Assembly: GCF_018448935.1 (NCBI RefSeq)
Contig: NZ_RCWC01000047.1
Coordinates: forward strand, 1 to 33,213
Reading direction: 5' to 3'
Length of the DNA stretch: 33,213 nucleotides
From: Photorhabdus noenieputensis
GTDB lineage: Bacteria > Pseudomonadota > Gammaproteobacteria > Enterobacterales > Enterobacteriaceae
How positions within the stretch are numbered: position 1 is the stretch's first letter; each line of letters opens with the position of its first letter. This document shows, in pieces, positions 9,691-20,353 of this stretch. The translations under genes were made by a program, and so were the position numbers. A model generated the notes under the pieces. The model was not told the origin of the DNA. It saw nothing but the letters and a program-made list of their open reading frames with translations, and made no database searches.

Positions 9691-10596
9691 ATGAAAACTA
9701 AACTGCTCTCATGTTGCCTTAGTGCTGTACTTTGTAGCACATTTCCTCTTATAGGGTATGCAACGCCCATTACCGCAACTCAAACACAGGATATTGTTGC
9801 CCCTTCCCTCTCGATCACAGCATTGCAAAAACTGAGCTGGCAGCCGATTAATACCAGTGATACTCAGACTATTATTCTCAATGCCGCATCTCAGCATCTT
9901 AATGAGGGAGATATTCAGGGGCCGATAGCCGCATTCGCGCTGCCGGCAAACCGAGGCTCTCTGGATATTACCCTGAGCAGCTTAGTACAAGACAAACAAG
10001 TTTATGTACCAAATGTTTTAGTCCTGGATCAAGGGTTACGCCCCGCCGCATTTTACCCGAGCAGTTATTTTCCCTATGAACGTCCGGGAGTTATGTCCAC
10101 CGATCGGCTGGAAGGCACACTAAAGCTAACACCAGCGCTGGGGCAACAACAAATTTATATACTGGTCTACACCACCCGTACCGATTTGCAGAAATCCACT
10201 CAAATGGTTGATCCCGCCAAAGCTTACGCTCAAGGCGTCGGTAATGCCGTTCCCGCTATTCCCGATCCCGTTGCCCGCCATACACAAACAGGCACGTTGA
10301 AGCTGAAAGTAAAATCAGAACAAAACGCTGGCAACATCACGATTGGTCAAGTTTTCTCAAGTCCAGCACAGGAACCGATCATTGTCGGGCCAACACAAGC
10401 CACCGTAACGCCATCTACTCCGCAAAAGGTCAAACCGGTTCTGAGTGATACAGAGCGTTATTTCAGTGATGCAATTAAAAAAGAAATTAGCAATGGCAAT
10501 ATCGATAAGGCACTCAAATTGCTGGATGAAGCGGAACGCCTTGGCGCTTCAACTGCACGAGAAACATTTATCAACAGTATCAAAAACAAAGGGTAA
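9691..10596 (+). CDS. malM: Periplasmic maltose-regulon protein MalM
   Basis: Secreted protein of the maltose regulon, 301 residues against 306 in E. coli; its biochemical role is not settled. An N-terminal signal peptide ends near GYA. Family blocks are clear: VPNVLVLDQGLRPAAF, YPSSYFPYERPGVMS, LEGTLKLTPALGQQQ, DPAKAYAQGVGNAVP and the C-terminal KALKLLDEAERLG helix. A Pro/Thr-rich linker (about residues 230-250) separates the two parts. It ends the malK operon, downstream of an intercistronic terminator. Confidence 0.93.
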   Translation: MKTKLLSCCLSAVLCSTFPLIGYATPITATQTQDIVAPSLSITALQKLSWQPINTSDTQTIILNAASQHLNEGDIQGPIAAFALPANRGSLDITLSSLVQDKQVYVPNVLVLDQGLRPAAFYPSSYFPYERPGVMSTDRLEGTLKLTPALGQQQIYILVYTTRTDLQKSTQMVDPAKAYAQGVGNAVPAIPDPVARHTQTGTLKLKVKSEQNAGNITIGQVFSSPAQEPIIVGPTQATVTPSTPQKVKPVLSDTERYFSDAIKKEISNGNIDKALKLLDEAERLGASTARETFINSIKNKG

Positions 10597-10650
10597 ACAA
10601 ATGCTCTCCGAAGAGGGGGGCATCAGGTTCAACTCCTTTTTACACACATC

Positions 10651-10730
10651 CCCCGGAAATGGGGTTTTTATGTATACAAATAATTGCTATGATAAATATC
10701 TATACACAAAACACCCTTTTAAGGGGTTTT
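10651..10730. promoter_or_regulatory. Short palindromes and possible promoter before the AbiE pair
   Basis: The stretch holds a CCCC-GGAAAT-GGGG stem followed by TTTTT (10651-10669), which may weakly terminate malM; a TGTATACA palindrome (10671-10678); a TATGAT -10-like hexamer (10688-10693); and a CCCTTTTAAGGG palindrome (10714-10725). AbiEi antitoxins autorepress by binding inverted repeats upstream of abiE, so these palindromes are candidate operators. No good -35 is visible. Confidence 0.4.
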
Positions 10731-10747
10731 ACAGTAGAGATAATGAA

Positions 10748-11281
10748 ATGGATATGCTCACAGCAATTAACAAATTAGATGAGTTCAGCAAAATGGGAAG
10801 AGCCGTTTTCCTTTTACAGGATTTGGAAGTCATCTTTGCTGACGAGACTTCTCGAACATTGCAAAAATCTATTGATCGCCTCATCAAAGCCGGACTGTTA
10901 CTTCGCATTACCAAAGGGGTTTATGTCTATACGCGGGCCAGCATGGGGAGTTATCCCCTGGAGACTATCGCCAAAAATATCCGACGAGGCGAATATAATT
11001 ACATCAGCCTGGAGTCAGCTTTATCTCAATATGGGTTTATCTCACAAATCCCAATTGACCGCCTGACAATCATGTCTACTGGCAGAGCTGGAGAGTTTAA
11101 AACACCGTGGGGAGTCATTGAAATCACCCACACCAGCAGAGAGCCTAGCGAAATTCTGAAAGCAACATTAGAAAGCCGTGGCCCCCTGCGTATCGCAAAA
11201 AAAGAGACTGCTCTGCGTGACCAAAAAAGAGTGGGGAGGAATATGCATTTAGTTCAACTAGAGGAACTCAACTATGTCTAG
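10748..11281 (+). CDS. AbiEi-family type IV antitoxin (DUF6088-like)
   Basis: About 177 residues: an N-terminal winged-helix region (TSRTLQKSIDRLIKAGLLLRI followed by TKGVYVY) typical of AbiEi-type transcriptional repressor-antitoxins, then a C-terminal domain with YISLESALSQYGFIS, usual in this group. In type IV systems the antitoxin represses the operon and neutralises the toxin without forming a stable complex with it. The frame is open back into malM (10445), but those codons belong to malM in another frame. ATG at 10748 has an AGAGA upstream; 10754 and 10670 are alternatives. Its stop overlaps the toxin start by 8 bases. Confidence 0.85.
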   Translation: MDMLTAINKLDEFSKMGRAVFLLQDLEVIFADETSRTLQKSIDRLIKAGLLLRITKGVYVYTRASMGSYPLETIAKNIRRGEYNYISLESALSQYGFISQIPIDRLTIMSTGRAGEFKTPWGVIEITHTSREPSEILKATLESRGPLRIAKKETALRDQKRVGRNMHLVQLEELNYV

Positions 11282-12194
11282 CCACGTTAACTTTAACGCC
11301 ATTGTTGATGAAGTCATTGAACAAGACAGACTGGCAAACCTGAGGCCAGTTGTAGAAAAAGAACTGTTGCATTATGACATCCTGTTTTGTCTTTCTAAGG
11401 ACGGTTTACTCAAGGAGATTACCTTTCAGGGTGGTACATCGCTAAGGCTCTGCTACGGCTCTAACCGATTTAGCGAAGATCTGGATTTTGCTGGTGGGCG
11501 TGGTTTCTGTTCGGCTGATTTGAGTAGAATCAAAGAGTGTATCGAGAAATACCTGGGTGTACGATATGGGCTTGAGGTCACGGTAAAGGAACCGAATGAA
11601 CTACGAAACAAACCGGAGTATGCAGAAGTAAAAGTGGATAAATGGCAAATATCCGTCACTACTGCGCCTGAACGTAAAGACCTGCCAAAACAGCGCATAA
11701 AAATAGAAATCGCCAATATTCCTGCCTATACAAACACCCCCCGTTCATTGATAAGAAATTATTCAGTGTTACCCGACGGATATGCTGATCTCCTTGTGTC
11801 TGTCGAAACCCTGCCTGAAATCATGGCCGATAAGCTGATAGCATTCCCTGCTACTACATCTCAAATTCGATACCGCGATATGTGGGATTTATTATGGTTA
11901 AGTCAGCAAAATACAACACCAGACATAGAACTCATTAAAAGAAAAGTATCAGATTATCAGCTTGATAACTTTGAGGAATTGCTTCAAGCCAGAATCGACT
12001 CGATTGAAATTATTGTTGCTTCTGGTCACTTTCACAACGAGATGAGACGATTTATACCCGCACCTATATACGACAGAAGTGTAGGACAAGAAGCATTTTC
12101 CACCTATTTAACGACGAGCCTAAAGGAGTTGTTAACCACTGTGAAGAAAAGCCTGTATTCTTCAGGAGACAACTCCATTCCATTCAAGTTATAA
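11274..12194 (+). CDS. AbiEii/AbiGii-family nucleotidyltransferase toxin
   Basis: A 306-residue MenT/AbiEii-like toxin of the DNA polymerase-beta-type nucleotidyltransferase superfamily; characterised relatives add nucleotides to tRNA 3' ends or bind GTP and cause reversible growth arrest. Hallmarks are the GGTSLR nucleotide motif (53-58), the metal-binding DLD (69-71, in RFSEDLDF), a third acidic strand KIEI, and the C-terminal ADKLIAF...RYRDMWDLLWL block. It overlaps the antitoxin gene, so translation is coupled. AbiE systems can protect against phage. Location directly behind malM marks the edge of the accessory island. Confidence 0.9.
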   Translation: MSSHVNFNAIVDEVIEQDRLANLRPVVEKELLHYDILFCLSKDGLLKEITFQGGTSLRLCYGSNRFSEDLDFAGGRGFCSADLSRIKECIEKYLGVRYGLEVTVKEPNELRNKPEYAEVKVDKWQISVTTAPERKDLPKQRIKIEIANIPAYTNTPRSLIRNYSVLPDGYADLLVSVETLPEIMADKLIAFPATTSQIRYRDMWDLLWLSQQNTTPDIELIKRKVSDYQLDNFEELLQARIDSIEIIVASGHFHNEMRRFIPAPIYDRSVGQEAFSTYLTTSLKELLTTVKKSLYSSGDNSIPFKL

Positions 12195-12492: not shown

Positions 12493-13572
12493 TTAGATCT
12501 GATCTAATACAGGCAAAGCCTTAGTGATTCTTAACAGGAAATTATCTTCGTAAAGAAAGGCAATAGAATTTTTTATTGCTTGATAATCTCTTACTTTACA
12601 TTCGTCAATAATGAGTTGTAATTTTTCAGACAACTCAGGAATACTACCTGATTTATAAAGCTCACCATTTAAATTATTAATAATATCGTTCGGACCACAC
12701 TGGCAATCTGAACTTATACAGTAGATACCATAAGATATTGCTTCCGCTAATACCATGCCAAAGCCTTCATATTTTGAGGTTAAAATAAAAGCTGATACCT
12801 CTTTTATATTATCCATCACAAATTCCCACGGCTGATCTTGCCAACCATGCCAAATAATATTGTTATTTATATTAAGCTGTGAAGATAATTCTTTTAAATA
12901 ACCCTCATCATCACCAGAACCTACCATATGTAATTCCCAATGACCATGCAATTGTGAAAGCGCTAAAAACAGTTCAGTTATATTTTTTGATTTATAGGCA
13001 AGAATTCTGCCAACATATAAGAATCTGGCTATGTGTTTTGGTTGAGGAATGATAAAGGAGTTCATCTTAATAGGGTTGAAAATAAGATGAAGCTTATCCG
13101 TTTTTATCCCAAAAGATAACATTTGATCTCTTAAACCAGAACTGATTACAAGGTGTTCGTCGGCACAGCATAAATCTTTAATTTTCTGTGGGGTAGGATT
13201 TCTAATGGCAGTATGCAGCCAAGAATAAGTTTTTACCGGGAAATTAATCTTTTCACAAGAAAGTCGAGCAATATCACAGGATGTTGTGTCTAAACTTATT
13301 AGAATCTCGGGGTGAAATTTTTCTAATATCAAGGACAGCTCGCATGCAATATCCTGGCAAGATTCGCAATTGCTTGATGTTAAGGAGATATGTTGAGCAT
13401 GAGATAGCCAAGCACGATTCTCAATTATATTGGTTTCATTTAGTGATATGAAAATGAAATCAATTTCAATGTTGGCACGACCAATCAAATTGATTAAATT
13501 CGAACATACCGTTTCTACTCCACCATATCCATTCAAGAAAAGATCATGGTATATTATGAATATTTTTTTCAT
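12493..13572 (-). CDS. GT4-family glycosyltransferase
   Basis: A 359-residue retaining GT-B glycosyltransferase. N-terminal acceptor domain: MKKIFIIYHD plus a Gly-rich GYGGVETV loop (15-22), typical of GT4 enzymes. C-terminal nucleotide-sugar domain: FLYVGRI near 184-190 and an EX7E motif (E269, E277, in YEGFGMVLAEAISYG), followed by CGPNDII. The region resembles WaaB-like LPS galactosyltransferases as well as the MshA/BshA branch, so donor and acceptor are open. No membrane segments; cytoplasmic or membrane-peripheral. It is the last gene of the minus-strand cassette, 10 bases after the PIG-L gene; that pairing often means that it attaches an N-acetylated sugar which the deacetylase then trims. 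Very AT-rich. Confidence 0.88.
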   Translation of the reverse strand: MKKIFIIYHDLFLNGYGGVETVCSNLINLIGRANIEIDFIFISLNETNIIENRAWLSHAQHISLTSSNCESCQDIACELSLILEKFHPEILISLDTTSCDIARLSCEKINFPVKTYSWLHTAIRNPTPQKIKDLCCADEHLVISSGLRDQMLSFGIKTDKLHLIFNPIKMNSFIIPQPKHIARFLYVGRILAYKSKNITELFLALSQLHGHWELHMVGSGDDEGYLKELSSQLNINNNIIWHGWQDQPWEFVMDNIKEVSAFILTSKYEGFGMVLAEAISYGIYCISSDCQCGPNDIINNLNGELYKSGSIPELSEKLQLIIDECKVRDYQAIKNSIAFLYEDNFLLRITKALPVLDQI

Positions 13573-13582
13573 TACAAATCCT

Positions 13583-14362
13583 TTATTGAATTAACCAAAA
13601 ACGCTCTTGCACTTTTATTTCATTAATAGTTTTATGATATTTCCCCAATGAAATTAAAATATTTGATTCATTATCAAACAGAGGTTCTAGTTGAGTCTCA
13701 TAAAATAGGATGTTTTGCACTTTTTCTTTTAAATCAATATCCACCAATATAGCATGCTTATCAAATTTATTATTTCTTAATAAAGCACTTTCCAAACTAT
13801 CAGGGTTAATAATAGGGTATTCACCTAAAACATAGGGGAAATCTTCATAAAGCAATATTTTAAACTTACGTGAACCTTTTATATTATGTACAAGATTATT
13901 TATTATGATGTGGTCTACATGTCGACCTATTCCCAAAGGGGCATAGACATAATCAGGTTGATAATTTAACAATGTTTTGTCGATTAGCTCTTGAGCCATA
14001 TCGGATGCATAATCTGATTTATGTATCTGGCCACTATAAATCATGGCCGCATTTTTATACATAGGTTCACCGTATTGATCGGTTCTGTAAATGCAATCTA
14101 AAATTTTACCATGTATTGGAGTCGCTGATAATTTATTGCAAAAAGCGATATCTTCATTGGCTCGCTTTGCATAAAGTTTTATAAATGCATACATATTATC
14201 ATCATGTTCAGAGTGTGAATAATGAGATGTAAGATTTTTATCATATTCAGTAAAAAATGTTAAAACAACCACCTTTTGATTTTCTGAAACTAATTTATGT
14301 ATTAAACCGCCAGCGCTTAAAGCTGCATCGTCTAAATGAGGTGATAGAAATAGATGTATCAT
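13583..14362 (-). CDS. PIG-L (LmbE-like) family deacetylase
   Basis: A 259-residue Zn-dependent de-N-acetylase/amidase-like protein. The N-terminal motif is SPHLDDAALSAGG (7-19): H9 and D12 are predicted metal ligands and D11 the general base. The third ligand is in GRHVDH (147-151), and YEDFPY (172-177) is typical of this subfamily. Relatives (MshB, BshB, PIG-L, LmbE) remove acetyl from N-acetylglucosamine conjugates or cleave amides in sugar antibiotics. No signal peptide. It sits between the GT4 gene and the helical unknown, with near-zero spacing, so it is cotranscribed. Start by MIHLFLSPH, the usual distance to the first motif. The specific substrate is unknown. Confidence 0.88.
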   Translation of the reverse strand: MIHLFLSPHLDDAALSAGGLIHKLVSENQKVVVLTFFTEYDKNLTSHYSHSEHDDNMYAFIKLYAKRANEDIAFCNKLSATPIHGKILDCIYRTDQYGEPMYKNAAMIYSGQIHKSDYASDMAQELIDKTLLNYQPDYVYAPLGIGRHVDHIIINNLVHNIKGSRKFKILLYEDFPYVLGEYPIINPDSLESALLRNNKFDKHAILVDIDLKEKVQNILFYETQLEPLFDNESNILISLGKYHKTINEIKVQERFWLIQ

Positions 14363-14363
14363 T

Positions 14364-15110
14364 TTAAATCTCCATACAAAAGTTATTATATTTTATTTCC
14401 ATGAGTACAATATAAATAGCGGCCAGATCAATGCGTATCCCATCCCTGTTTTTTATAAAATCTGAGTTATCAATGTTTGAACTTTCTTGGGATTGAACTC
14501 TTTCATCATGGGCATAAAACTCTTTCATTATATCAAACCAGCCAGCATGGATTCTTTTTGCGGCAACTTCTATTACGCTGTCACTGTGGCCTAATATTGT
14601 CATTAAATCAGAAAAAATAGTATCGTTTGTAGAAAGTAAGGTTTCATAATTAAAATTATCAGACACAATATTATTGTCGTATGAATAAGTCTCTTTTATT
14701 ACTTCCGATATAATACTCAGGTCACTTATTATTAACCTTTTCTCAAATTTTTTCTCTTTTTCAGTGAATGCTTGATAAGGTTTTAAAAAATTAACTTGTA
14801 AGTCGTATTCAATCTCAAGTTTTTTTATTGAGTCTTGCATAGCAGTTTTATTATCGACTAAATATTTTGCACACCATAAGTCGTGTATACAAGAGGCAAG
14901 AATATCTAAATTATTATCCTGTCCCAAGAATATACATATTTCATAAAATAATTTAATCTGTGTATTATTTAACTGACGATGTAAAGTTATCTGGCTGGGA
15001 TTAAATATAAATGAGGCTTGCTTTAATCTTCTCTGAATCTCTTTGGTTAAGTATATTGAATTTAAATTGATTTTGCTCTCCAGCAGTTCTTTGTTATTTT
15101 CTTTACTCAT
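14364..15110 (-). CDS. Hypothetical helical protein
   Basis: I do not recognise this 248-residue protein. It is predicted almost entirely alpha-helical, charged and soluble, without signal peptide, membrane segment or cysteine motif. Two similar short motifs stand out: LASCIHDLWCAKYL (71-84) and AAKRIHAGWFDIMKEF (183-198), both with Ile-His-x-x-Trp. That spacing recalls the core helix of RyR-type domains, and suggests an internal duplication; this is a weak inference. It lies one base upstream of the PIG-L gene and 10 bases downstream of the nucleotidyltransferase gene, so it belongs to the same operon and may be an accessory or regulatory partner. Confidence 0.7.
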   Translation of the reverse strand: MSKENNKELLESKINLNSIYLTKEIQRRLKQASFIFNPSQITLHRQLNNTQIKLFYEICIFLGQDNNLDILASCIHDLWCAKYLVDNKTAMQDSIKKLEIEYDLQVNFLKPYQAFTEKEKKFEKRLIISDLSIISEVIKETYSYDNNIVSDNFNYETLLSTNDTIFSDLMTILGHSDSVIEVAAKRIHAGWFDIMKEFYAHDERVQSQESSNIDNSDFIKNRDGIRIDLAAIYIVLMEIKYNNFCMEI

Positions 15111-15120
15111 GATCTATCTC

Positions 15121-15747
15121 CTATCCTTTGTTCATTAACCTTATTTCCGTTGATGATATATCTAAGCGAAATAGATTTTCTGGAATAGATTCAAATAAAA
15201 ATCGATGTTCCTTTCTAATATTCACCAAATCATCAACAGTGTGATATTTATTATTAAAAAAACGTCCAGCCACCAGAAATCTACAATCATTACTCTTAAT
15301 TGTCATAAGAGATTCTTTTAATCCTTTCTCACCGCCATAATAAACAGGATTATTAATTTCTTGGCATAAATCAGCGCCAATGACAAAAATTGCTCCCTGA
15401 TAAATATGCGATTTCTCAGAGAAAATTTTAGCGTCACTTAAAACTATATCACCTTTCCCTTTGAATTGCCTGATCCTCTTGAAAATTTCATCGGTTGAAA
15501 TTGCAAGTTTTACCGCATTCTTAATTGACAATTCATAATATGGTTTCCTTTTAGTCATCGCTGTAGCGATTTGTTTTAATTCTTCATGGCCTTTATGAAG
15601 TGGATTGAAAGAACCAGATAAAATTAAAGTATCTTTCCAGTCTATATCTGTATCGTTAAAATCTCCATTTCTATCAATATGTATAGAATTCAACTTACCA
15701 TTAATTAAATTAATTAAATAACGCTCATCCTCGTTAGGCATATTCAT
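15121..15747 (-). CDS. NadD/NMNAT-like nucleotidyltransferase
   Basis: A 208-residue alpha/beta nucleotidyltransferase. After about 40 non-conserved residues comes GSFNPLHKGH (45-54) with the HxGH site (H51, H54), then GADLCQEI (124-131), and at the C-terminus ISSTEIR (197-203), the ISSTxIR phosphate-binding motif of NadD/NMNAT enzymes. Such enzymes transfer AMP (sometimes CMP) from NTP to a phosphate with release of pyrophosphate. The long N-terminal extension and AT-rich cassette context argue that it is not the housekeeping NadD; it may activate a sugar or nicotinate-like phosphate for the pathway. An ERIC element stands upstream, so it might head a separate transcript with the next three genes. 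Confidence 0.82.
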   Translation of the reverse strand: MNMPNEDERYLINLINGKLNSIHIDRNGDFNDTDIDWKDTLILSGSFNPLHKGHEELKQIATAMTKRKPYYELSIKNAVKLAISTDEIFKRIRQFKGKGDIVLSDAKIFSEKSHIYQGAIFVIGADLCQEINNPVYYGGEKGLKESLMTIKSNDCRFLVAGRFFNNKYHTVDDLVNIRKEHRFLFESIPENLFRLDISSTEIRLMNKG

Positions 15748-16151
15748 CTATATTCTCATATGTTATTACTGTTAATTAAACACATATCAATTCCTTATAT
15801 ACCCGTCATCTTTCAAGTTGCCTCTTTGTTGGCTGCACTCTCTCACCCCGGTCACATAGTTATCTATGCTCCCGGGGATTCGCTCCTTGCCGTCGCGATG
15901 CATCTTGAAATCCATAAGGTATATACTCAAATATTCTTAAATTCTACCATTGTATTATTTACCAATGGTGATTAATGATCCATTTTCACTCTTTTGAAAT
16001 AAATGTCAAATTGATTTCCCTAGTGATCGCCAAGCCGTCTGTTAGTGGTAATTTCTTGTTTTTTAACATTAAACCATGAACTATGAATGTTTTAATCGCA
16101 ACTCAGTTTATTGCTAAATTACCTGAACTGTTCTCATTAATTATCAGTATT
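15748..16151. other. 404-bp gap inside the cassette
   Basis: This gap splits the otherwise tightly packed cassette. It contains ERIC copy 2 (15798-15923). Between two minus-strand stops, 15986-16102 is open for 38 codons with a protein-like tail (MLKNKKLPLTDGLAITREIN within it), possibly the end of a lost gene. A plus-strand 33-codon hydrophobic frame near 16078-16180 has no ribosome site. No firm promoter was identified. Confidence 0.5.
15798..15923. repeat. ERIC element, copy 2 (126 bp)
   Basis: Same family and orientation as the copy at 460-586, starting TATACCCGTCA and ending GGTATA. It is one base shorter (a missing C in the TTCGCTCC segment) with scattered substitutions. It sits between the PLP-enzyme and nucleotidyltransferase genes, 51 bases before the latter's start, so the transcribed palindrome could act as an RNA-processing or attenuation element in the cassette. 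Confidence 0.92.
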
Positions 16152-17297
16152 TTATTTATAATTTTCCTTAGTGATTTTAATTAAGGCAGACTTTATTTTT
16201 AAAATATCTTCCATTGTATGCGACGTATCAAGGCTAACCCGAACAGCGCCATCAGGATACGTTCCGAATTTTTTATGCGCTAACGGTGCGCATTGCAATC
16301 CAGGACGGGTAATAATATTGTATTTGTTTTCTAGTATATAAGAGACTTCTCCGGGATGATAACCTTCTACCGTAAAAAGAATTGTTGGTAACCCGACTTG
16401 ATGTTTACAGATTAATTTGACCCTCTTTAATTGTGCTAGCTCATCTATAAGATTTATACGCAAAGTTTGTAATTGATTCTGAATATTCTCTATCCCAATT
16501 TTTTTTAAACGCCTGATAGATGCTAGCAATGAAAGTATGCCAATAGTGTTTTGTGTTCCTGATTCATATTTGTATGGTATGCCCGTTGGCTGTGTTGTCA
16601 ATCTTGATAATACACCTGTCCCACCCTGAACTAATTCACTATGAGAAAATCCATTATCAAGAATAAAGTACCCGCCAATACCTGATACTCCACCTAAACT
16701 TTTGTGCCCGCTAAAAACAAGGTAATCAATATTCCCTTTCGATAAATCAATTTCTTGTGAACCAAAAGATTGTGAGCCATCAACTAAAACCATTGCACCG
16801 TATAAATGTGCCAGTTTTCCTATCTCATCTATATTACAAAATGTACCAATAGTATTGGAGCAACTATGAATCACTAATAACTTAGTTTTCTTATTCTTTA
16901 ATAAAAACTCCAAATGCGACATATCAATTTCACCATCTGTCACATCGATAAATTGACTACTTACCCCAATGTCTTTTAAATGGTTTATCGGCCTAAGTAC
17001 TGAGTTATGTTCTAAATGGGTAGTAATGACATTATCACCTGGCTTAAGTGTACCTTTTAGACATTCGTTGAGTGAATACGTTGCTCCTGAGTTAAAAATT
17101 ACTGTCCCATGACCATTTAACTTTGTTTGTTCGATAAATTCGTGTCGGCACTCTTCAACGAGTTCAGTAACCTTTTTAGATTGTTGCGATAAAGATCGCC
17201 CTGGAGTTACGCCAAGAGTGTCTAAATACATATTTATTATATCTTTCACTTCTTGTGACTTTGGCCATGAAGTAGAAGCTACATCTGCATATAACAT
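16152..17297 (-). CDS. Cysteine desulfurase-family PLP enzyme (class V aminotransferase fold)
   Basis: A 381-residue fold-type I PLP enzyme of the group exemplified by the TIGR01977 'cysteine desulfurase family'. Visible residues: THLEHNSV (93-100; H97 stacks on PLP), VDGSQSFG with D174 and Q177, the Schiff-base lysine K199 in FSGHKSLGG, YESGTQN (244-250), and a candidate persulfide-forming cysteine C336 in RPGLQCAPLAHK. It would take sulfur from L-cysteine and leave alanine; some family members are C-S lyases or epimerases. No IscU, SufU or TusA partner is nearby, so it is unlikely to be a general Fe-S enzyme and may feed sulfur to this cassette's product. Overlaps the HIT-like gene by one base (TAATG-type junction). 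Confidence 0.87.
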   Translation of the reverse strand: MLYADVASTSWPKSQEVKDIINMYLDTLGVTPGRSLSQQSKKVTELVEECRHEFIEQTKLNGHGTVIFNSGATYSLNECLKGTLKPGDNVITTHLEHNSVLRPINHLKDIGVSSQFIDVTDGEIDMSHLEFLLKNKKTKLLVIHSCSNTIGTFCNIDEIGKLAHLYGAMVLVDGSQSFGSQEIDLSKGNIDYLVFSGHKSLGGVSGIGGYFILDNGFSHSELVQGGTGVLSRLTTQPTGIPYKYESGTQNTIGILSLLASIRRLKKIGIENIQNQLQTLRINLIDELAQLKRVKLICKHQVGLPTILFTVEGYHPGEVSYILENKYNIITRPGLQCAPLAHKKFGTYPDGAVRVSLDTSHTMEDILKIKSALIKITKENYK

Positions 17298-17953
17298 TAT
17301 CCAACCTCCATATGGTTACTAATATATGATTTGAATTTTTTAGCCGTCGCATCCATCTCCTTTATTCCTTCATTATCTCTCCAATCAGATCTTTCAGGCA
17401 CATTTAAACTATTTGCCAATACGGTTCTTATCATTCCTCTCTCAATGAAATCTGATTCACCTATCGTAAAAATATACTTATTACCACTATCTTCAACGTA
17501 AATATAGGGGCCAGCCTCACCGAACATCTCAAGTTCATCCAATGAGTCTATTGTATGCATTTTAAATTGATCCTTTAATTTATTATGCAGATCAATCTCG
17601 GTAGGGAAACAACATAAATGTGCATGATAACAATACTTTTGATTCGGGTCCATGATGATACAACCACCAGCTCGTCCATTTTCATAGCAAAGAGGATTGC
17701 TTATATTGTAATATTCTCGATAAAAATCATTTATTATATTCTTAAACTGTTTCAGTTCTTTTATTGCCTCTTCATCGTATATTTCTGCAAAACAACGGTA
17801 TCCTCCTAAACTAGTCTCACATTTATTGGTGGCAATTATTATATAGCCCTCAATTATCTGACCTTTAGGTACGAATACATAAAAATATTTTCCTTGTAAA
17901 AGTATTTTATCTTTTTCAAAGGAAGATTCTGGATGACAAAAAATACATCCCAT
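17297..17953 (-). CDS. HIT-like nucleotide-binding protein with CxxC motif
   Basis: A 218-residue protein resembling the HIT superfamily (nucleotide hydrolases and transferases). It begins with CIFC (C3, C6), a metal-binding pair typical of HIT/GalT-like proteins, and has CYHAHLCCFP (108-117) where the HIT motif H-phi-H-phi-H lies: H110 and H112 (the middle His, the usual nucleophile) are kept, but the third His is Cys114. The C-terminal 80 residues do not match a family I know. It could remove or transfer a nucleotidyl group, complementing the nucleotidyltransferase in the cassette. Its stop overlaps the PLP-enzyme start, implying coupled translation. Confidence 0.72.
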   Translation of the reverse strand: MGCIFCHPESSFEKDKILLQGKYFYVFVPKGQIIEGYIIIATNKCETSLGGYRCFAEIYDEEAIKELKQFKNIINDFYREYYNISNPLCYENGRAGGCIIMDPNQKYCYHAHLCCFPTEIDLHNKLKDQFKMHTIDSLDELEMFGEAGPYIYVEDSGNKYIFTIGESDFIERGMIRTVLANSLNVPERSDWRDNEGIKEMDATAKKFKSYISNHMEVG

Positions 17954-17964
17954 TTTAAACTCCT

Positions 17965-18921
17965 TTATCGTTTGTCAATTCTACTAATAAATATATCTTC
18001 ATGACACAAATTGAAATCTTCTTCAATATGCCAGGCAATCATCATGCTAAACTTATTTATAATACTATGTTTATTCAGTCTGCTTTGTAATTCAGAATAA
18101 ATAGGATTTGGTAAGATTATTCTGCATTTTGTCCTAATAGCAAGACAAGAATCAATCACAGATATAATTGTACCAGGAGCTGTATTGGATAAACCTATCA
18201 CCTCTACCGTGGTATCATCAAAACCTAATATCGCTAATTCTTTCCCAACAGCTAATAACTTAATATCATTGTAGCGAGGACACTGCTTTGAGTAAGCAAT
18301 CCAATTGTTATTTACTTCCCTGCCGAAAAAATTGATTTTATTAATATTACCTATTTCATTGAAATCATTCAGATCTACATCTATTTTGGTAGCTCCTTCC
18401 ACTACTATTTCTGTAAAATCAAAAATGTTCACTTTGCTACATAGGTATTTTTCGAAAATCTTTGAATAACATTTTATCTTTCTTTCATCAGAGTAACAAA
18501 CCGTCGCATCTACATCATTACTATGGGTTTGTTTGGCACTTTCTATTATCAAAGTTCGTGATTTTACACTTTCATCTATCCCAAAATCGCTAAGCATATT
18601 AATAGATACTCGTCGATATTTAAGAGTGAATTCACACCTTCTTGTTATAAGGATTGACAAGCATATATCGTTTATTTTATAAAAAAATGCTTTTATCTCA
18701 CTAGAAAGATTATATTTCTTTTCTTTCAGGTTTTTCCAAATAAAATAATCCAAGCTCCCTATATCACGCTTATAAAAATTATTTATTAGGATATAATTCT
18801 CTTCCGTTATATCTTCATAATTCAGGTTTACTCCACTCTCCATTATTTTGCCCCATTGTTTATATTGGCGACAATTGCTGCGCATTTTTAGTTTATATTC
18901 ATTTGCGAGTATATGAATCAT
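17965..18921 (-). CDS. Hypothetical protein, first gene of the cassette
   Basis: I do not recognise this 318-residue protein. It is soluble, without signal peptide or membrane span, rich in Ile, Asn and Lys. Blocks that look structured are RRVSINMLSDFGID (about 103-116), VIGLSNTAPGTIISVID (about 242-258) and IILPNPIYSELQSRLNKH; the last two have an alternating strand/helix pattern that could suit an acyltransferase-like or Rossmann-like fold, but no catalytic motif is clear. ATG 18921 lacks a ribosome site; ATG 18843 (MESGVNLNY) has GGGG seven bases upstream and may be the true start, giving 292 residues. It is 11 bases upstream of the HIT-like gene and heads the operon. Confidence 0.7.
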   Translation of the reverse strand: MIHILANEYKLKMRSNCRQYKQWGKIMESGVNLNYEDITEENYILINNFYKRDIGSLDYFIWKNLKEKKYNLSSEIKAFFYKINDICLSILITRRCEFTLKYRRVSINMLSDFGIDESVKSRTLIIESAKQTHSNDVDATVCYSDERKIKCYSKIFEKYLCSKVNIFDFTEIVVEGATKIDVDLNDFNEIGNINKINFFGREVNNNWIAYSKQCPRYNDIKLLAVGKELAILGFDDTTVEVIGLSNTAPGTIISVIDSCLAIRTKCRIILPNPIYSELQSRLNKHSIINKFSMMIAWHIEEDFNLCHEDIFISRIDKR

Positions 18922-19248: not shown

Positions 19249-19452
19249 TTAAAGGTCATTATCAGACTGTTCCATTTTAGCAACAGTTGGTTGTTTGATC
19301 CCAAGCACAGCTGCCAGCTCAGTTTGTGAAACATCACGGGCCTCGCGGATCTGATAAAGCCCTATCTCCCGTTTCATTTCATCAACTTTTTTAGCAATTC
19401 TACGGCGGCTTTCAGGGCTGCGTTTTTCAAGCAATTCATCAAGTGTAGTCAT
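19249..19452 (-). pseudogene. Truncated XRE-family (HigA-like) antitoxin
   Basis: Only 67 codons survive. The N-terminal part and the complete helix-turn-helix (SQTELAAVLGIKQPTVAKME) match HigA2-type antitoxins, and the intact paralogue at 20051 shares LGIKQPTV. A TAA stop falls right after SDNDL, where the intact gene continues with KLSSLKRYVEATG and a beta-strand C-terminus. A second frame (19143-19337) runs on past this point and may hold the shifted remainder. The ATG overlaps the stop of the toxin remnant (ATGA). A short DNA-binding product may still be made. Confidence 0.75.
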
Positions 19453-19694: not shown

Positions 19695-20045
19695 ATGTGG
19701 GCTATCGAAACGACGGACACCTTTGATGCATGGTTCGATGCTTTGGATGACACCGACAGGGCCAATATGCTAGCTTCAATAATAGCACTTCGGGAAAGAG
19801 GCCCTATGTTACCCAGGCCATACGCAGATACTGTGAACGGTTCATGCCACAGCAACATGAAAGAATTACGTGTCCAAAGCAAAGGCGATCCGCTCCGAGC
19901 ATTCTTTACGTTCGACCCCAAGCGGAGAGGAATTTTGCTTTGCGCCGGTAACAAAACCGGAAACGAGAAACGGTTTTATGAAACGATGATTCCAATTGCT
20001 GACCGTGAATTCACGGCACATCTGGAAAAGTTAAAAAAGGAGTAA
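19695..20045 (+). CDS. HigB/RelE-superfamily toxin
   Basis: A 116-residue type II toxin of the phage-derived Gp49-like/HigB group, ribosome-dependent mRNA interferases in characterised cases. Typical features are the short N-terminal start MWAIETTDTFDAWFDAL, the helical pair up to residue 35, the MKELRVQ strand, and the basic C-terminus KRFYETMIPIADREF. AAGGAG lies 6 bases before ATG. The toxin gene precedes its antitoxin by 5 bases, the order characteristic of HigBA. Intact, unlike its decayed neighbour on the other strand. Confidence 0.88.
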   Translation: MWAIETTDTFDAWFDALDDTDRANMLASIIALRERGPMLPRPYADTVNGSCHSNMKELRVQSKGDPLRAFFTFDPKRRGILLCAGNKTGNEKRFYETMIPIADREFTAHLEKLKKE

Positions 20046-20050
20046 ACACT

Positions 20051-20353
20051 ATGGCAAGAACTCTTGATCAAATATTAGCAAACGAAAAGCCCGAAGTTGT
20101 TGCCAATGCACAAGCTGCGGCAACAGAGATGTTGCTAAACATCCATCTGGCAGAACTCCGTGAGCGGGTACAAAAAACTCAAGGAGAAATAGCTCTGGCT
20201 CTTGGTATCAAGCAACCCACGGTTTCTGACATGGAGAAGTTTGGCCGCGACTTGAAACTGTCTTCCCTCAAACGTTACGTTGAGGCAACGGGTAGCAAGC
20301 TGCGTCTCGATATCGAGTTACCCGACGGTACCCATTACGGATTTTCCGTTTAA
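20051..20353 (+). CDS. XRE-family antitoxin (HigA-like)
   Basis: A 100-residue antitoxin and autorepressor. The helix-turn-helix lies at about 44-66 (TQGEIALALGIKQPTVSDME), followed by RDLKLSSLKRYVEATG and a beta-strand end (LRLDIELPDGTHYGFSV) used in dimerisation or toxin contact. It follows the toxin gene directly, and the palindrome in the promoter at 19644-19661 is its likely operator. It converges on the rpoC terminator about 240 bp downstream. Confidence 0.9.
   Translation: MARTLDQILANEKPEVVANAQAAATEMLLNIHLAELRERVQKTQGEIALALGIKQPTVSDMEKFGRDLKLSSLKRYVEATGSKLRLDIELPDGTHYGFSV

Follow-up and report, generated by a model that had tools for sequence, protein, structure and literature searches.

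A conserved seven-gene operon of Photorhabdus possibly directing synthesis of a de-N-acetylated, sulfur-bearing glycoconjugate

We analyzed a stretch of 33,213 nucleotides from Photorhabdus noenieputensis (contig NZ_RCWC01000047.1 of assembly GCF_018448935.1, here called the window) and within it a cassette of seven minus-strand genes located at positions 12493–18921 between rpoC and malM. From gene 1 to gene 7 these encode a protein matching no family, a histidine-triad (HIT) protein, an enzyme of the cysteine desulfurase family (CSD), a NadD-like nucleotidyltransferase (NT), a protein with a weak RyR-domain match, a PIG-L de-N-acetylase and a GT4 glycosyltransferase. We tentatively propose that the seven genes form one biosynthetic operon, confined in our samples to Photorhabdus, and that its pathway leads via a nucleotidylated intermediate to a de-N-acetylated, possibly sulfur-bearing glycoconjugate. 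An earlier note made from the letters of the DNA alone had described seven tightly spaced, AT-rich genes forming one unit and had assigned five of them to the GT4, PIG-L, nucleotidyltransferase, desulfurase and HIT-like families. All seven open reading frames (ORFs) were confirmed, profile matches support the five families, and the notion of one unit gains support from gene spacing, conserved order and selection.

The GC content of the cassette genes ranges between 0.293 and 0.353 as compared to 0.497 for rpoC and 0.469 for malM, and GC at third codon positions between 0.21 and 0.28 as compared to 0.479 for rpoC. In the window the intergenic distances from gene 1 to gene 7 are 11, -1, 404, 10, 1 and 10 bp. 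Across the Photorhabdus copies the distances range from -19 to 13 bp, with two exceptions: the repeat-bearing gap that separates genes 3 and 4, and a single gap of 90 bp at locus L022; the P. bodei locus (L013) was left out for want of a reliable measurement, and in P. heterorhabditis the gap lies beyond the available sequence. The gap between genes 3 and 4 measures only 11 bp in P. thracensis (L021) versus 252–404 bp in nine other measured copies including the window. Because P. thracensis has this short gap in place of the repeat-bearing one, we read the cassette as ancestrally one operon which was split later by insertion of a repeat, although it is possible that the repeat was instead lost in P. 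thracensis. The repeat, which we take to be of the ERIC type, matches at least 44 other places of Photorhabdus genome G200, a lower bound as 40 of 382 candidates were scored. It also matches E. coli repeats, under no annotated feature among the matches listed (best 20), and within the same limit the dispersed repeat is the only part of the central 3 kb of the cassette to match E. coli; the DNA of GT4 has no match there.

We determined the distribution of the cassette with the HIT protein as query against 84,980 species genomes, a scan that detects close relatives only, and obtained 11 further loci, all of them Photorhabdus and 91–97% identical. The earlier note had suggested searching for the same gene order in other genomes: at ten of the 11 loci the seven genes or their pieces follow one another in this order, two genes being broken at one of these. 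At the eleventh (P. heterorhabditis, L016) the desulfurase match extends as far as residue 129 of 381 and stops about 0.2 kb short of the contig end. The position is likewise kept, with rpoC as a flank in 10/11 loci and malM in 9/10 for which the other side is available; L020 has neither. Median pairwise ratios of non-synonymous to synonymous substitutions (dN/dS), calculated from 10–12 sequences per gene, are 0.114 for HIT, 0.115 for CSD, 0.153 for gene 5, 0.167 for NT, 0.180 for GT4, 0.193 for gene 1 and 0.195 for PIG-L (gene 1, NT and PIG-L of P. bodei and the short CSD of P. heterorhabditis were omitted). All seven genes are thus under purifying selection, and because these low ratios are accompanied by an order kept in ten other loci, the cassette is more than a chance assembly.

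Decayed copies also exist. In P. bodei a repeat-like insert breaks gene 1 and PIG-L is fragmented, the ORFs of HIT, CSD, gene 5 and GT4 being full-length. Genome G200, a Photorhabdus without NT, retains no piece of HIT, fragments of genes 1, 3 and 5 and a GT4 split over at least three ORFs. Loss of one part and decay of the remainder fits a shared function of the seven genes. An ORF that we read by eye as transposase-like lies near the internal deletion of G200.

The NT gene was found in 11 of 12 Photorhabdus genomes and in 3 of 198 family genomes (two Photorhabdus, the third a partial match at 23% identity). HIT was detected in 1/394 genomes of the order (the genome under study), 2/369 of the class (additionally G848) and 4/398 of the phylum (additionally two partial matches), PIG-L in 1/360 genomes of the class at E≤1e-8, again the genome under study. 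A complete seven-gene set outside Photorhabdus was not found in the sampled genomes; as these sets are samples, distant copies may exist. The two partial, weak HIT matches of the phylum sample were rejected by eye: L035 reads as a GalT protein, and the surroundings of L036 contain no cassette-like gene. In further genome scans with the HIT profile, all matches but that of G848 extend no farther than roughly position 117 of the 213 in the profile, counted from its start. No match was obtained in the plasmid collection for NT (E≤1e-5), gene 1 or gene 5 (E≤0.01), nor in the phage collection for the HIT proteins of Photorhabdus or Rhizobium. Viral contigs gave no true relative of the cassette proteins; the single locus reported, L066, is a chance match of 12 residues within another ORF.

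From the enzyme families we infer the reactions, their order and the product as follows, uniting a sugar half (GT4, PIG-L) and a sulfur half in what we regard as the most economical scheme. The WaaB-type GT4 would link an N-acetylhexosamine glycosidically, or transfer a hexose onto one, and PIG-L would take off the acetyl group to leave a free amine. NT would put a nucleotidyl group on the intermediate as activator. In the sulfur half of the pathway, consisting of CSD and HIT with NT as activator, CSD would release the sulfur of cysteine in the form of a bound persulfide, and the nucleotide on the intermediate would then be exchanged for sulfur. tRNA-thiolation enzymes swap a nucleotide for sulfur after adenylation. 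HIT would handle the nucleotidyl bond, either taking the nucleoside monophosphate onto its own histidine so that sulfur can enter, or clearing nucleotidylated intermediates. The product of gene 5 may sense or bind a ligand in a partner role, that of gene 1 may be a tailoring, ligating or joining enzyme. The end product would be a small, soluble glycoconjugate bearing sulfur and an amine.

GT4 scored 469 bits against the WaaB model NF007396, above the curated cut-off of 385, and its best solved structures are those of WaaB (E 5e-61, compared with 2e-6 for BshA). By family membership it is predicted to be a galactosyltransferase. It resembles WaaB (RfaB), the 1,6-galactosyltransferase of lipopolysaccharide (LPS), by cut-off and closest structure, but sequence identity to the E. 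coli enzyme is 34.6% and no LPS-core gene is found among the described neighbors of the cassette. With E values between 1.5e-7 and 3.7e-4, the other GT4 matches of the genome are weak. PIG-L scored 63.8 bits against PF02585 (cut-off 28.2), contains the motifs PHLDD and HVDH and is the sole match to this family in its genome. At E 2e-12 to 1e-9, its closest solved enzymes are Dbv21, teicoplanin Orf2 and a deacetylase deposited as 6iiy. Dbv21 and Orf2 deacetylate glycopeptide pseudoaglycones; they are distant from gene 6, however, and the seven genes include none for glycopeptide synthesis.

The WaaB-type GT4 makes modification of the LPS core or of another surface glycan a serious rival, somewhat unlikely as we judge it. 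GT4 would add an N-acetylhexosamine to the LPS core, PIG-L would de-N-acetylate it and the other genes would add a further charged group. In Klebsiella, WabH and WabN carry out addition of N-acetylhexosamine to the LPS core and subsequent de-N-acetylation. The curated WaaB score, the weakness of other GT4 matches and the single PIG-L of the genome are consistent with such a role. The described neighborhood without LPS-core genes and the closer relation of PIG-L to antibiotic deacetylases among solved proteins argue against it, and we know of no LPS-core pathway with a role for a nucleotidyltransferase, a HIT protein, a desulfurase or gene 5. A cluster already assigned to a known product such as LPS modification had been named in the earlier note as an outcome that would count against it; this applies to one gene by family, but not to the locus.

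CSD scored 222.9 bits against Aminotran_5 and 334.1 bits against the EF2568-type model TIGR01977, below its cut-off of 377. The lysine of SGHK and the catalytic-loop cysteine of RPGLQCAP, the latter aligned to the solved desulfurase 5b7s, are common to CSD and the SufS and EF2568-type desulfurases, from which it differs by its score and by the lack of a recognized sulfur-acceptor partner among the seven genes. Eight further, weaker CSD relatives are present in the genome. NT matched CTP_transf_like with 27.3 bits (cut-off 21) and shows the motifs GSFNPLHKGH (GxFxPxHxGH) and ISSTEIR (ISSTxIR); at 26.6 bits it falls far below the cut-off of 112.45 of the NadD model TIGR00482, leaving it a member of the broad CTP_transf_like family only. 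A sequence search for NT yielded no solved structure. Gene 5, which the earlier note had called an unknown helical protein, gave a match to RyR (PF02026) with E 4e-4 and 21.1 bits, under the gathering cut-off of 27.4. The weak match recurs at E≤1 in all ten scanned members of its family (alignment A4; best 9e-6), and no PDB match was found. Gene 1 matched nothing in Pfam, NCBIfam, PADLOC or PHROG, and its alignment of 11 sequences (A3) matched no PDB entry at E≤10 and, credibly, no Pfam family. A likeness to GNAT acetyltransferases seen by eye is backed by no profile and is not claimed, and gene 1 showed no kinship with gene 5 or with the Streptomyces 313-aa neighbor described below.

HIT scored 23.3 bits against CwfJ_C_1 (cut-off 21). 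Classical HIT proteins carry a full HxHxH triad and match PF01230; the Photorhabdus protein reads HAHLC and does not match this family, in contrast to its Lactococcus relative, which reads HAHNH (alignment A7) and does. A profile of the branch matched CWF19L1 across the HIT and C-terminal parts (positions 9–198 of 213, E 5e-11). Like the CWF19L1/CwfJ-type proteins the branch combines a HIT domain with a conserved C-terminal part containing a DWR motif, but the aligned segment of CWF19L1 shows HLQ where the branch keeps HxH, and the bacterial protein is stand-alone. In the plasmid collection the Photorhabdus query found two Lactococcus plasmids. With the Lactococcus query ten records were obtained, six of them over 79–100% of the length (two Lactococcus, two Streptomyces, one Rhizobium and one Parabacteroides), and the five records found with the Rhizobium query all fall within these six. 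Genome G848, presumably xanthomonad-like, contains a further full-length relative. There (L031, 418–5682) the CwfJ-like HIT gene is followed by genes for a 428-aa protein, an HD protein, a DNA methylase and a ThiL-like AIRS protein; by eye the contig also carries an integrase-like ORF.

A desulfurase gene lies within 1.5 kb of HIT in 3 of 5 non-Photorhabdus lineages and at none of 19 control places, which were ordinary HIT-like matches remaining from 21 scanned loci after one duplicate and one NT locus were dropped (Fisher p 0.005), a comparison in which the controls are chromosomal and the positives mostly plasmid-borne, the lineages are few and the hypothesis was formed post hoc, after the first loci. 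One of the two Lactococcus plasmids, the first, carries in succession the desulfurase gene, HIT and a gene for a membrane protein that weakly resembles EamA. Both Streptomyces plasmids (L043, L044) show a 181-aa protein, dCTP-deaminase-like as tested in L043, then HIT, a 313/314-aa protein and the desulfurase. In three lineages the two genes overlap, by 1–19 bp in Photorhabdus and by 4 bp each in Lactococcus and Rhizobium. The linked desulfurases differ in their best subfamily, which is the EF2568 type in Lactococcus and Photorhabdus and the NifS/DndA type in Streptomyces and Rhizobium. The Lactococcus enzyme reaches TIGR01977 with 388.9 bits; those of Streptomyces and Rhizobium stay below the NifS/DndA cut-offs. 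Since the pairing recurs with different desulfurase subfamilies and with gene overlap in three lineages, it suggests a functional bond between this rare HIT branch and the desulfurase. The earlier note had counted absence of co-occurrence elsewhere against itself: the full set was indeed met in Photorhabdus only, but desulfurase and HIT co-occur in three other genera. A wider claim, which we regard as doubtful, is that CSD and the CwfJ-like HIT constitute a portable two-enzyme module with which at least four distant bacterial lineages introduce sulfur into metabolites activated by a nucleotidyl group, and that in Photorhabdus its union with the GT4/PIG-L arm would yield, nearly genus-wide, a sulfur-bearing aminosugar metabolite of an undescribed class.

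The Rhizobium pair belongs to an island of Rhizobium leguminosarum pRL1 (L042, 617–12353) that is unannotated in the collection. By profile it contains NTP_transf_2, inositol-phosphate-synthase-like, DJ-1-like, thymidylate-kinase-like, phosphoribosyl-pyrophosphate (PRPP)-synthase-like, PfkB, HIT, TrpD-like and desulfurase genes; others were read by eye as oxidoreductase-, SDR-, RidA-, methyltransferase- and PhyH-like. The island adjoins transposase- and integrase-like genes and resembles a natural-product cluster for a nucleoside or a cyclitol. The Streptomyces block adjoins LysR and methyltransferase genes, in L044 followed by a phage portal gene. Such neighbors bear on a second serious rival, unlikely in our estimate, in which HIT, NT and desulfurase would make a thio-nucleotide that GT4 and PIG-L decorate, giving a nucleoside natural product, or act in RNA modification. 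It draws on the nucleotide enzymes next to HIT elsewhere: dCTP-deaminase-like in Streptomyces, ThyX and dihydrofolate reductase in Parabacteroides, and the PRPP-synthase-, thymidylate-kinase- and TrpD-like neighbors in Rhizobium. These partners are absent from the Photorhabdus operon, however, and the adjacent genes in Lactococcus include none of them.

The earlier note had further pointed to GT4 plus PIG-L as the core of mycothiol and bacillithiol synthesis, with the desulfurase as sulfur source and the nucleotidyltransferase for the activating step. A thiol-cofactor pathway of this type would employ a HIGH-fold enzyme for activation besides GT4 and PIG-L, and gene 1 as acyltransferase, to produce a glucosamine-cysteine thiol. 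The kinship fails at the level of sequence and such a cofactor is very improbable as product. Enterobacterales use glutathione. The scores of GT4 against the BshA model TIGR03999 (39.2 bits, cut-off 273.7) and of PIG-L against the BshB1 model TIGR04001 (24.7 bits, cut-off 182.5) are low, solved BshB1 matches PIG-L with E 0.67, and among the matches listed none of the seven proteins belongs to an MshC, BshC, ligase or acyltransferase family. What remains of the likeness is GT4 adjoining PIG-L, together with the common membership of HIGH-motif nucleotidyltransferases and class-I tRNA synthetases, the kin of MshC, in the HUP superclass (PMC2922099). Equally improbable is a conflict or defense gene set between toxin-antitoxin loci, which the HigBA-like and AbiE flanks, the low GC, the use of desulfurases in Dnd/Ssp systems and a GT4-conflict profile match (E 1.5e-4, below its own cut-off) might suggest, but PADLOC matches the desulfurase only (SspA, DndA) with 6/7 proteins unmatched at E≤0.1 and thus no phosphorothioate partner genes, no nuclease family appears for the seven proteins among the matches listed, and the position is kept in most Photorhabdus loci rather than mobile.

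The glycoconjugate pathway itself is supported by the expected motifs in CSD, PIG-L, NT and GT4, by HxH in HIT and, judged by sequence, by antibiotic deacetylases being the nearest solved relatives of PIG-L. Several points weigh against it besides the make-up of the linkage comparison. The operon lacks a transporter or carrier gene, genes 1 and 5 are without assigned chemistry, the third triad residue of HIT is Cys in Photorhabdus, and CSD, being under the EF2568-type cut-off, might instead be a different class-V enzyme such as a C-S lyase. The acceptor of GT4 may be LPS rather than a small molecule. Regarding the linkage, a desulfurase is missing from the examined stretch in two of six branch lineages (Parabacteroides and G848), only a fragment of one is present on the second Lactococcus plasmid, four half-length plasmid matches of HIT (three Sulfitobacter, one Listeria) were left out of the count, and the HIT proteins of Rhizobium and G848, taken singly, match no Pfam family.

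Table 1. Cassette genes and flanking features with their positions in the window.
Feature	Position	Strand	Description
Gene 1	17965..18843	-	292 aa; no family match
Gene 2 (HIT)	17297..17953	-	218 aa; histidine-triad protein resembling CwfJ/CWF19L1; motifs CxxC and HxH, Cys as third triad residue
Gene 3 (CSD)	16152..17297	-	381 aa; class-V pyridoxal-phosphate enzyme, cysteine desulfurase type
Dispersed intergenic repeat	15798..15925		presumably ERIC-like; between genes 3 and 4
Gene 4 (NT)	15121..15747	-	208 aa; NadD-like HIGH nucleotidyltransferase
Gene 5	14364..15110	-	248 aa; weak RyR-domain match
Gene 6 (PIG-L)	13583..14362	-	259 aa; zinc de-N-acetylase family
Gene 7 (GT4)	12493..13572	-	359 aa; WaaB-type glycosyltransferase; EGFGMVLAE motif
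HigBA-like toxin-antitoxin pair (Gp49/HTH)	19695..20353	+	PF05973, PF01381; flank, outside operon
AbiEii nucleotidyltransferase toxin (type IV toxin-antitoxin)	11274..12194	+	PF08843, 124.7 bits; flank, outside operon

Gene 1 is listed with its probable start at 18843 and not at 18921, because the upstream extension contains stops in three orthologues (L017, L018 and L022). The rpoC proteins of the window and of P. caribbeanensis share 99.86% identity. ARAGORN found no tRNA in the window, and a promoter/terminator scan gave 45 promoter-like sites versus 40.5 expected. Adjoining the HigBA-like pair is a second HigA-like helix-turn-helix ORF of 67 codons (19249–19452, minus strand), which has a 99-aa homologue at the same position in L074; HigA-like matches on the strand of this ORF are also seen in L013, L016 and L018. 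Between malM and the cassette an AbiEi/AbiEii-like pair occupies 10445–12194 on the plus strand. Of the 11 other Photorhabdus loci L013 alone gave an AbiEii match, and several have a short AbiEi or none.

No description of the cluster or of the desulfurase-HIT pairing was found in the literature, in a coverage with few subscription journals, in line with the earlier note, which knew no described pathway for this set. The enzyme families are known; their combination and the pairing appear to be new. Photorhabdus is a heavily mined natural-product genus, and the nearly genus-wide operon contains no gene for a nonribosomal peptide synthetase or polyketide synthase, the kind of gene on which common mining depends. 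If a sulfur-bearing aminosugar metabolite is indeed made, it would bring with it a new chemistry and probably a trait on which the nematode-insect life cycle depends, and the desulfurase-HIT pair would serve as a genomic handle for finding more sulfur pathways across phyla.

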